A DNA stretch of 41,452 nt from Nitrospirota bacterium (GTDB lineage Bacteria; Nitrospirota; Nitrospiria; 2-01-FULL-66-17): NCBI GenBank assembly GCA_016201825.1, contig JACQCD010000059.1, positions 1 to 41,452 of the forward strand, read 5' to 3'. The notes beneath the pieces are model-generated. The model was not told where the DNA came from and did not search any database. It was given only the letters and a program-made list of their open reading frames with translations. The translations under genes were made by a program, and so were the position numbers. Shown piece after piece: positions 26,456-29,070 of this stretch. Position 1 is the first letter of the stretch, and every line of letters begins with the position of its first letter.

Positions 26456-27433
26456 TTAGGGGATCAACACCGTGGACCCCGTCGTCTTCCGCGCCTCGAG
26501 GTCGGCATGGGCTCGCGCGGCTTCGCGAAGCGGATACGTTTGCCGAATCTCGACCTTGACGGATCCGGATCGCACCACGCCGAACAGCGCCGCTGCGCTC
26601 GCCAGCAAGTCCCCGCGGCTCGCGGTGTACGTCATCAGCGTCGGCCTGGTCAGATACAGCGATCCCTTTGCGGAAAGAATGGAGATGTCCAGCGGAGGCA
26701 CGCTCCCCGATGATTGCCCGAAGCTCACCAGCATCCCGCGGGGTTTGAGGCAGTCCAACGAGCGCAACAACGTGTCCTTCCCGACCGAGTCGTAGACAAC
26801 CGGAACGCCTTCACCCTTGGTGATCTCCCAAACCCGCTCGGCGAAATCCTCCTTCGACGTCACAATCACGTGATCGCATCCATGGGCGGCCGCGAGCGCG
26901 GCCTTCTCGGGCGTACCCACCGTCCCGATCACGCGCGCGCCAAGCGCCTTCGCCCATTGACAGGCGACGCTCCCCACGCCTCCGGCCGCCGCGTGGAAGA
27001 GGATCGTATCACCGGCCTTGACGGCGAATGTTCGGCGGAGCAGATATTCAGCCGTCATGCCTTTCAGCATCATGGCCGCGGCCAGCCGATCGTCGATCGT
27101 GTCGGGCAACGTCACCAGGCGATGCGCGGAAATCGTGCGTGCCTCACAGTACGCGCCGGTCGGCCCCCCCGCGTATGCCACGCGATCGCCGACCGACACC
27201 TCGGTCACCCCGGATCCGACCGCCTCGACGCGGCCGGCCGCTTCCAGGCCGATCACGGCCGGCAACGATGGCAGGGAGTACAGCCCCCGGCGATGATAGA
27301 CGTCGATGAAATTGAGGCCAATCGCGGTGTGCCGGACCAGCGCCTCACCGGGCTCCGGCGCGCCGACCGGGACATCTCGCCATTCGAGCACGTCGGGTCC
27401 GCCCGTTCGCTCAATCACCAGCGCTTTGGGCAT
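26456..27433 (-). CDS. NADPH:quinone reductase (zinc-independent MDR family)
   Basis: A 325-residue medium-chain reductase like QorA. It starts at ATG 27433 behind GGAGGG. The N-terminal segment reads RHTAIGLNFIDVYHRRGLY, the NADPH-binding loop is HAAAGGVGSVACQWAKALGA and the C-terminus is RKTTGSTVLIP, all typical of quinone oxidoreductases. The zinc-ligand cysteines of alcohol dehydrogenases are absent. It would reduce quinones or other electrophilic carbonyls with NADPH. It follows the SDR/zinc-ribbon gene by about 50 bp, so it is probably under the same TetR control. Confidence 0.93.
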   Translation of the reverse strand: MPKALVIERTGGPDVLEWRDVPVGAPEPGEALVRHTAIGLNFIDVYHRRGLYSLPSLPAVIGLEAAGRVEAVGSGVTEVSVGDRVAYAGGPTGAYCEARTISAHRLVTLPDTIDDRLAAAMMLKGMTAEYLLRRTFAVKAGDTILFHAAAGGVGSVACQWAKALGARVIGTVGTPEKAALAAAHGCDHVIVTSKEDFAERVWEITKGEGVPVVYDSVGKDTLLRSLDCLKPRGMLVSFGQSSGSVPPLDISILSAKGSLYLTRPTLMTYTASRGDLLASAAALFGVVRSGSVKVEIRQTYPLREAARAHADLEARKTTGSTVLIP

Positions 27434-27484
27434 CGAGAGTTCCCTCCGGTCTTGGACCACAACCCCCGGCGCTCGCCGCCCCGT

Positions 27485-27679
27485 TTACGCGGCAACGGCC
27501 CGCTTCCGGGCCGGCTTTTGCGGCCGGGGCGGGCTGTGCCGATTCGCCATGATGACCGGATCGGAAATGTTCCCGCACACGAGACACCGCCAACCGGCGA
27601 ACATGAGCTGGCCGCTATCGTCCGCCAGATCGGCAAACTGATCGACGACCATCAAACCATTGCATCGCACACACTGCAT
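27485..27679 (-). CDS. Small zinc-ribbon protein, nested in-frame at the 3' end of the SDR gene
   Basis: An internal ATG at 27679 would give a 64-residue protein starting MQCVRCNGLMV, with CxxC pairs (CVRC and CLVC) and the phrase MFAGWRCLVCGNISDPVI, then a basic tail. A near-perfect Shine-Dalgarno, AAGGAGGTGA (27685-27694), lies at ideal spacing (about seven bases). It is in the same frame as the dehydrogenase. This is best read as an originally separate small gene that lost the stop codon of its upstream neighbour. Confidence 0.55.
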   Translation of the reverse strand: MQCVRCNGLMVVDQFADLADDSGQLMFAGWRCLVCGNISDPVIMANRHSPPRPQKPARKRAVAA

Positions 27680-28408
27680 GTCCATCACCTCCTTACCCCG
27701 CAAAGCGGGCTGCGCAACGAAATACACCGCGGCATGAGCGATTTCGTCGGGCGTTCCCATCCGGCCAATTGGATGCATCGCATCGAATCCCGCCCGCATC
27801 GTGGGGTCGGCCGTCAGGGCCGCCACACCCGGCGTATCAACGCCCGCGGGGCAGATCGCGTTGCAGCGGATGCCTTGCCTGGCGTATTGGATGGCCACCG
27901 TCTTGGTCAGCATGTTCACTCCCGCCTTGGCGGCGGCATAGGCGTGGGCTGGAAAGCCCGGTATCGCTTTGATCCCCGCCACCGTCGAGATATTGATGAT
28001 GGAGCCCCCGCCCTGTTTGATCATCTGGGGAATCACCGCACGCGTGAATCGAAACACTCCCTTGAGAAACAGATCCATGGTCTCGTCCCACACCTGGTCC
28101 GACGTTTCGTGCAGCGGTCCGGCATGGAAGAGATTCCCCGCGTTGTTGATGAGCACATCGATCCGCCCGAACGCCCTCACCGTCGCCTCAACCGCCCGCC
28201 GAACGTCGGCCTCGATCGTCACACTTCCGGGCGCAGACGATGCGCGACCTCCGGTCCGCTCGATGGCGGCAACCACATGGTCCAGTGCGTCTTTCCGGCG
28301 TCCGGTGACAGTCACGCTCGCACCCTCCCTCGCGAACGCCTTGGCGATTGCCTCGCCGATCCCCGATCCTCCGCCCGTGACCAGGGCCACCCTGTTCTGC
28401 AGTCTCAT
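27485..28408 (-). CDS. Short-chain dehydrogenase with a C-terminal zinc-ribbon extension
   Basis: A 307-residue protein. Residues 1-232 are a classical SDR: TGGGSGIG (11-18), NNAG (88-91), serine in INISTVAG (about 141) and the catalytic YAAAK (157-161). The usual last 20-25 residues (the VTG...VDGG strand) are missing. Instead the frame runs through a spacer into about 60 residues with two zinc knuckles, CVRC and CLVC. ATG 28408 has GGAGG seven bases upstream. The fused part has its own Shine-Dalgarno, so it is probably also made separately. Substrate is unknown; regulation by the nearby TetR protein is likely. Confidence 0.85.
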   Translation of the reverse strand: MRLQNRVALVTGGGSGIGEAIAKAFAREGASVTVTGRRKDALDHVVAAIERTGGRASSAPGSVTIEADVRRAVEATVRAFGRIDVLINNAGNLFHAGPLHETSDQVWDETMDLFLKGVFRFTRAVIPQMIKQGGGSIINISTVAGIKAIPGFPAHAYAAAKAGVNMLTKTVAIQYARQGIRCNAICPAGVDTPGVAALTADPTMRAGFDAMHPIGRMGTPDEIAHAAVYFVAQPALRGKEVMDMQCVRCNGLMVVDQFADLADDSGQLMFAGWRCLVCGNISDPVIMANRHSPPRPQKPARKRAVAA

Positions 28409-28464: not shown

Positions 28465-29052
28465 CTAAGCCCGAAACCCTTCCAACACCAACTCGACCAT
28501 CTCTGCACAATTCTTCAGGGCGCGAACGTCCCGCTTCACCTTCGACAACAAGATCCCGCCCTCGAGCGTGGCCACGATGAACCGCGCGGCCGCCTTGGGC
28601 TGAAGCGTCGCCCGCAAGAGGCCCCGTCGCTGACCCGACTCCAGAACCCCTTCGACCCGCGCCTCCCAGGTTGAAAACGCGTGGTCGAGTTTGCGCCGCA
28701 ACTGGTCATGCATGTCGGACACCTCCAACGCGAGGTTACCGAGCAGGCAGCCCCCTTTACACTGTCCCCCCGCCATTTTCTTTTCCGCACGACGGAACAT
28801 GGCAAGAATCTCACGAACCGGATCGCGCTCCCCGTCGATCTGCTCCGTTCCGAACTGTTCGGCGATCGTCTCATCGAGCACCGCGCTCCCCAGTTCCTCC
28901 TTGCTCGAAAAATAATAGTACAGGTTCCCTTTCGTCACGCCCGCCACCCGAACGATGTCGTCCATGCTGGTCTTGGTAAACCCCGTGGACCCGAACAGCG
29001 TGCGGGCCGACCGGATAATCCGGCATCGAGTCTTTTCTCCCTTTTCACCCAT
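28465..29052 (-). CDS. TetR family transcriptional regulator
   Basis: A 195-residue repressor. The N-terminal helix-turn-helix reads ARTLFGSTGFTKTSMDDIV then RVAGVTKGNLYYYFSSKEEL (residues about 15-60). The C-terminal helical ligand domain contains ILAMFRRAEKK and GCLLGNLALEVSD, which is the TetR_C subgroup common in AcrR/YxaF-type regulators. I chose ATG 29052 because GAGGG lies six bases upstream; a TTG four codons earlier is possible. It controls, by inference, itself and the SDR-quinone reductase genes. The ligand is unknown, perhaps an electrophile or quinone. Confidence 0.93.
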   Translation of the reverse strand: MGEKGEKTRCRIIRSARTLFGSTGFTKTSMDDIVRVAGVTKGNLYYYFSSKEELGSAVLDETIAEQFGTEQIDGERDPVREILAMFRRAEKKMAGGQCKGGCLLGNLALEVSDMHDQLRRKLDHAFSTWEARVEGVLESGQRRGLLRATLQPKAAARFIVATLEGGILLSKVKRDVRALKNCAEMVELVLEGFRA

Positions 29053-29070
29053 AGCAGCCCTCAAGAAACA

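Follow-up and report, generated by a model that had tools for sequence, protein, structure and literature searches.

The window, by which we mean the whole 41,452-nt stretch of Nitrospirota DNA that was analysed, encodes on its reverse strand a dehydrogenase of the SDR type that continues without a stop into a small zinc ribbon. The features at the locus, with the basis on which each was assigned, are as follows.

27485..28408, (-): fused open reading frame, SDR plus zinc ribbon, 307 aa, ATG start (ORF translation, Pfam)
27719..28408, (-): SDR body, native residues 1-230, its own sequence up to F230 (comparison with sister genome and relatives)
27696..27718, (-): remnant of a dispersed repeat, 23 nt, now coding VAQPALRG, residues 231-238 (identical to L038 4821-4843)
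27697..27709, (-): CCCGC-TTT-GCGGG hairpin within the 23-nt remnant (sequence)
27685..27694, (-): internal Shine-Dalgarno AAGGAGGTGA (sole match in the window)
27485..27679, (-): zinc-ribbon reading frame, 64 aa, with its own ATG at 27679-27677 (translation, relatives)
28465..29064, (-): TetR-family regulator, upstream of the fused frame (Pfam; order matches the sister genome)
26456..27460, (-): zinc-binding dehydrogenase / quinone-oxidoreductase-like gene, downstream of the fused frame (Pfam)

An earlier note on this DNA had described an SDR that lacks its usual C-terminal strand and runs in frame, through a leader, into a two-knuckle zinc ribbon with its own well-spaced start, and this is what the 307-aa frame encodes. 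The Pfam family adh_short_C2 covers residues 15-231 of the fused frame and reaches position 217 of the 236 in the profile, so the end of the SDR is missing; residues 231-252 of its relatives are absent. The ribbon has two CxxC knuckles and the conserved start. The open frame around the fusion is 312 aa, and the ribbon frame is open into the SDR, hence not free-standing. The joint between the two parts lies at 27718/27719.

A deletion joined two neighboring genes

Only one other genome of the genus (G001) was among those searched. Its sister locus, L038, on the same 12,124-base contig as L009, encodes a TetR regulator, a 252-aa SDR with a stop and, after a 99 nt spacer, a 64-aa zinc ribbon; a small membrane protein and the dehydrogenase known from the window follow. 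The window is without L038 4691-4820, a stretch of 130 nt holding SDR codons 231-252 (22 codons), the stop and 61 nt of spacer. The earlier note had proposed a recent deletion that joined two genes and a comparison with relatives for the separate genes. L038 bears this out: SDR and ribbon are separate there, the predicted leader lies between them, and the 130 nt between the two halves of the window's joint are in place. As to "recent", the fusion arose after the window's lineage and that of the sister genome had parted; this bounds the age and dates it no more closely. The 23-nt stretch left beside the joint is the sole fully identical one among 1916 gap-free 23-column segments compared between the two loci, an identity beyond chance. 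An in-frame joint is not beyond chance, at about 1 in 3.

In G002, which belongs to the same family but a different genus, TetR is followed by zinc ribbon, membrane protein, dehydrogenase and LytB (names assigned by likeness to the window's genes), with no SDR between them; the SDR of G002 is encoded at a separate place, L010. Together with the sister locus, this order indicates that the ribbon is an independent gene of the neighborhood and that the fusion is younger than the genus. An old, stable fusion common to relatives was rejected, with nothing found in its favor: the separate genes at the sister locus refute it, the next genus is arranged differently, and none is fused among the matches listed elsewhere.

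In G001 and G002 the small membrane-protein gene separates the ribbon from the dehydrogenase. The window's locus lacks it (27431-27485), and more than one rearrangement has therefore affected this stretch. A homologue with 72% identity over residues 1-83 is encoded elsewhere in the window's genome (G000) at a contig edge, behind a permease-like gene (L267, contig C55).

The fusion is known from one genome, a draft metagenome assembly in 147 contigs with 89% completeness, and an assembly error or a minority strain might have produced the 130-nt gap, the more so as the joint falls inside a repeat family and the membrane-protein gene is missing too. Against such an artefact, gene order on both sides is as in relatives, the frame is open across the joint, and the repeat remnant runs unbroken to the ribbon. 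We regard it as very unlikely.

SDR and ribbon are separate proteins in relatives

Matches to the SDR were found in 57/58 genomes of the class and matches to the zinc ribbon in 58/58, with several ribbon paralogues per genome. We examined 40 SDR loci, of which two were skipped, one because its frame is broken and one because it runs off its contig, and two more start at a contig edge. The 36 complete SDRs are 250-255 aa long and have the full tail in every case; 15 of them, at 65-77% identity, are exactly 252 aa. The ribbons are just as uniform, with 37/37 distinct sequences free-standing, 59-71 aa long and starting at the same residue (ATG in 35, GTG in 2). Among the ribbon matches listed for the 58 genomes, no other frame exceeds 188 aa, and among the SDR matches listed none other enters a ribbon without a stop. 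The earlier note had held that orthologues of the same fused length and without a conserved internal start would argue for an old, stable fusion; the fusion is absent from every other genome and locus among the matches listed.

Long SDR matches were considered as further fusions and rejected. Five of those listed reach query residue 250-251 free of stops, but their frames, at 245-264 aa, have ordinary SDR length. Matches that extend beyond this point in G021, G034, G056, G005 and G050 are all interrupted by a stop; the example looked at, L023, consists of an SDR, its stop and a further gene. A scan of viral contigs for the joint gave 0 matches, and the small Nitrospirota ribbon matches no Pfam or NCBIfam family above the cut-off. 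As an event at the level of genes the fusion is ordinary, and it represents no known SDR-zinc ribbon family.

In five Nitrospirota loci (L039, L042, L043, L048 and L064) a zinc-ribbon gene lies directly upstream of an SDR gene, the opposite order to that in the window. This adjacency hints that the two proteins may be functionally linked.

State of the SDR body

The lost tail contained seven residues, S232, W237, T239, G240, D246, G247 and G248, that are invariant in 25 relatives. A structure model of the sister SDR has a strand at E242-245, with a mean pLDDT of 87.9 but 63 in residues 241-250. A model of the fusion keeps the SDR core and has no strand at 233-250, with pLDDT <50 in 235-272 and 274-307; its alignment held no ribbon rows, leaving the tail under-informed. 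The joint as a substitute strand was rejected on this model, with the same reservation about its alignment. Because the edge strand and the seven invariant residues are lost, the long product is presumably a poor SDR.

The remaining body is well kept. T11-G18 (TGxxxGIG), N88-G91 (NNAG), S141, Y157 and K161 (YxxxK), the cofactor and active-site or catalytic motifs of an SDR, are invariant in alignment A9, the window included. Of 16 close SDRs, the window differs at 4 of the 104 columns that are invariant in the remaining 15, and the sister, counted in the same way, also at 4 of 104. The dN values of window and sister are likewise close, at 0.176 and 0.170 to L010 and 0.191 and 0.196 to L045. 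Neither invariant-column changes nor dN to these outgroups gives a signal of SDR decay by substitution, with synonymous sites near saturation. The sequence fits a recent event as well as an SDR body that may still work.

In an alternative reading, the fusion was kept as a working two-domain protein. The joint GKEVMDM, or the ribbon, would replace the lost SDR strand, or tethering two co-acting proteins would be useful in itself. The hydrophobic pattern of GKEVMDM resembles that of the lost strand GSILSVD, the body with its NNAG, S141, Y157 and K161 is not decaying, and SDR and ribbon are neighbors in the five opposite-order loci. Set against this are the fusion model, with no strand at 233-250 and low pLDDT (weak evidence, given its missing ribbon rows), and the fact that no second fusion is among the matches listed for 58 class genomes. 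On balance we think a working two-domain protein unlikely, though it is the strongest of the alternatives.

The ribbon retains its own start

Two ATGs follow AAGGAGGTGA. The first overlaps the Shine-Dalgarno; the second (27679-27677), 8 nt past GGAGG, is the ribbon start and corresponds to the residue at which all 37 ribbon relatives begin. AAGGAGGTGA occurs once in the window where shuffles predict 0.01, which is beyond chance. The fused frame therefore contains a Shine-Dalgarno and a start at proper spacing inside a longer frame. In an 81-nt fold most of the Shine-Dalgarno core is open, but the internal AUG pairs with the end of the SDR, at a stability no greater than that of shuffles; local folding energy around the internal start is not unusual against shuffles either (z -0.34 and 0.53). 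A hairpin blocking the Shine-Dalgarno was rejected because folding is no different from that of shuffled sequence. Compared with the sister ribbon, the ribbon has a dN of 0.139 and a dS of 0.77, indicating that it is under selection. The preserved Shine-Dalgarno and start, together with the free-standing relatives, suggest that the small protein still seems to be made alone, and two products from one frame are likely.

Starting from the observed deletion and its extent, the start signals retained in the window and the separate genes in relatives, we consider it probable that, after the split from the sister, the 130-nt deletion fused SDR and ribbon into one frame with two starts and two products. 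On the simplest reading, an illegitimate deletion would have run from within the SDR into the repeat and spared the Shine-Dalgarno and ATG of the ribbon; we infer ordinary illegitimate recombination as the source of the joint. The deletion would have taken the last 22 SDR codons, the stop and most of the structured repeat in the spacer, and so placed the ribbon gene in frame behind the SDR, on one mRNA with one long frame and two starts. Ribosomes starting at 28408 would make the 307-aa SDR-zinc ribbon polypeptide, and those starting at the retained Shine-Dalgarno and ATG (27679) the normal 64-aa zinc ribbon; both are presumably made. The locus thus offers a clear before-and-after case of one deletion fusing two genes with the start signals of the second intact, so it can serve as a test of whether such fusions, early on, go on making both products.

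The leader is the end of a dispersed structured repeat

The earlier note had read the stretch between SDR and ribbon as an old intergenic leader with a hairpin. The leader is real and present in L038, but it is also something else: its hairpin belongs to the last 23 nt, the 3' end, of a structured repeat of about 75 nt dispersed in the genome. CCCGCTTTGCGGG has 10 exact copies in the window's genome, and the reversed control has 0. Full copies consist of TCTCGCAGCCTCGG, a variable stem, CCTRCGTTGCG and then one of several 3' variants. The remnant in the window is a weak covariance-model match (27689-27755(-), 9.2 bits, E 0.87).

The search pattern fixed GCAGCCTCG and GTTGCG, so that the invariant outer stem in alignment A2 is partly selected, and evidence from covariation comes from the inner stem only. 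Before this alignment was made, we removed chance matches to the loose pattern, namely those from eight further genomes of the class (L167-L174) and one from G001 (L193). Across 33 aligned copies, 99.7% of inner-stem cells pair, and 26 cells are changed on both sides, against a shuffled mean of 9.8 (0/500 shuffles reach 26). The number of inner-stem pairs with two-sided change, 2, is not above shuffles (498/500 reach it).

At E<=0.01 the covariance model has 58, 29 and 32 matches in G000, G001 and G002; example loci across these genomes are L148, L150, L155, L156, L165 and L199. Elsewhere, 4/55 other genomes have one borderline match each (E 6e-4 to 9e-3), and a sample of the phylum yielded matches at E<=1e-5 in 2/245 genomes, both from this bacterium's family. 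Among the genomes searched, the repeat is restricted to that family. The leader as a known RNA was rejected: eleven loci compared with Rfam at E<=1 gave tRNAs, antisense look-alikes and sub-threshold matches, none on the repeat. The portions of the literature reached by a limited search hold no description of it.

A second subtype, GAAGCCTCG...TTCGCGGCCCGC, occurs in three copies per genome (L151, L153 and L157 in G000; L158, L160 and L162 in G001), and its outer stem, judged by eye, differs from that of the main type yet keeps pairing. At L250 1354-1491 and L199 118-255 the model match spans 138 nt instead of 75, with the expansion inside the stem-loop.

Copies lie at gene starts and tRNA ends

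We examined the position of 52 of the 58 copies in G000 (57 matches in 40 loci, minus three duplicates, one cut and one weak). By a start criterion devised for this analysis, 17/52 have their end no more than a few bases from a protein start; 14/52 lie at a tRNA end and 21/52 at neither. Random placements in the same loci fall at a protein start in 3.5% of cases and at a tRNA end in 0.5%. A Pfam family at E<=1e-5 is found in 16/17 of the frames that follow copies, which include FtsA, Lon, Cpn60, ribosomal L7/L12 and L19, RuvC, CheW, FliL and cytochrome b. A tRNA-Glu, a tRNA-Tyr and a tRNA-Gly/Thr pair (L149 1357-1568; L246 1556-1774 and 1790-2190) each sit between two copies of opposite orientation whose 3' ends face the tRNA. 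The transcript of such a bracketed tRNA could form a long stem around it.

One copy is itself read in frame and encodes the linker of a conserved zinc-ribbon/PCP_red protein (L198 1543-1617(-) and L178 1485-1559(+)). Matches to this protein occur in 15 genomes, of which 12 were aligned (L272 has a different long linker); the copy is present in G000 and G001 and absent in the 10 other orthologues (G002 and nine others). Between G000 and G001 it is identical at 73/74 nt, while the coding flanks are identical at 197/240 and 247/331. Presence in two genomes, absence in the other orthologues and this near identity argue that the copy was inserted, is translatable and is held more tightly than the surrounding coding sequence. 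The 23-nt remnant in the window behaves in the same way, being fully identical to the sister.

Tentatively, and with less confidence than we place in the deletion, we propose that the repeat is a functional element of RNA or DNA, specific to this family, with a role in marking gene boundaries, directly before the RBS of housekeeping genes (FtsA, Lon, Cpn60, ribosomal L7/L12 and L19, RuvC) and at tRNA ends. Its subtype would be kept at orthologous places and its nucleotides held even when translated, and through its partial loss an operon would have become, at this locus, a gene with one frame and two starts. If so, this locus shows the consequence of cutting the boundary element away. The repeat is the more interesting part of the locus than the fusion, and what keeps it at gene starts and tRNA ends is a testable question.

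Comparison with known systems

The repeat resembles REP elements in kind. REP and REP-like palindromic repeats, as described in PMC3733652, are likewise short, palindromic and dispersed, single or clustered, and occasionally inside genes; the repeat is palindromic with many dispersed copies (58, 29 and 32 matches; stem covariation). That source reports REPs mainly downstream of coding regions, whereas the repeat here, at about 75 nt, is enriched at protein starts and tRNA ends instead. REP elements carry a GTAG or CGTC tag at one end. Many copies of the repeat have CGTC or CATC before TCGCAG, with stem and loop lengths unlike those of the CGTC families in PMC3733652. REP elements are also associated with a Y1/RAYT transposase flanked by copies; 7 of the 12 Y1_Tnp places in the three genomes were tested and carry no copy of the repeat (best match 9.3 bits, E 0.47).

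With classical SDRs (PF00106/PF13561; nearest solved chains 7djs and 1rwb, glucose 1-dehydrogenase) the fused protein shares the Rossmann body, TGxxxGIG, NNAG and the S/Y/K residues. It differs in that the SDR stops at residue 230, with the C-terminal strand and DGG, a defining feature whose complete form is absent here, replaced by leader-encoded residues and the zinc ribbon. The ribbon has in common with stand-alone zinc-ribbon proteins of Nitrospirota the CxxC...CxxC pattern, the start residue, its own Shine-Dalgarno and multiple paralogues per genome; unlike them, it is open in frame to the upstream gene.

Some genes, among them those for CheA and IF2, have an internal start and give a full-length and a short product. 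As in these, a Shine-Dalgarno and an ATG lie inside a longer frame in the window. Here, in contrast, the internal site is an inherited gene start rather than one that evolved internally, and the second product is predicted.
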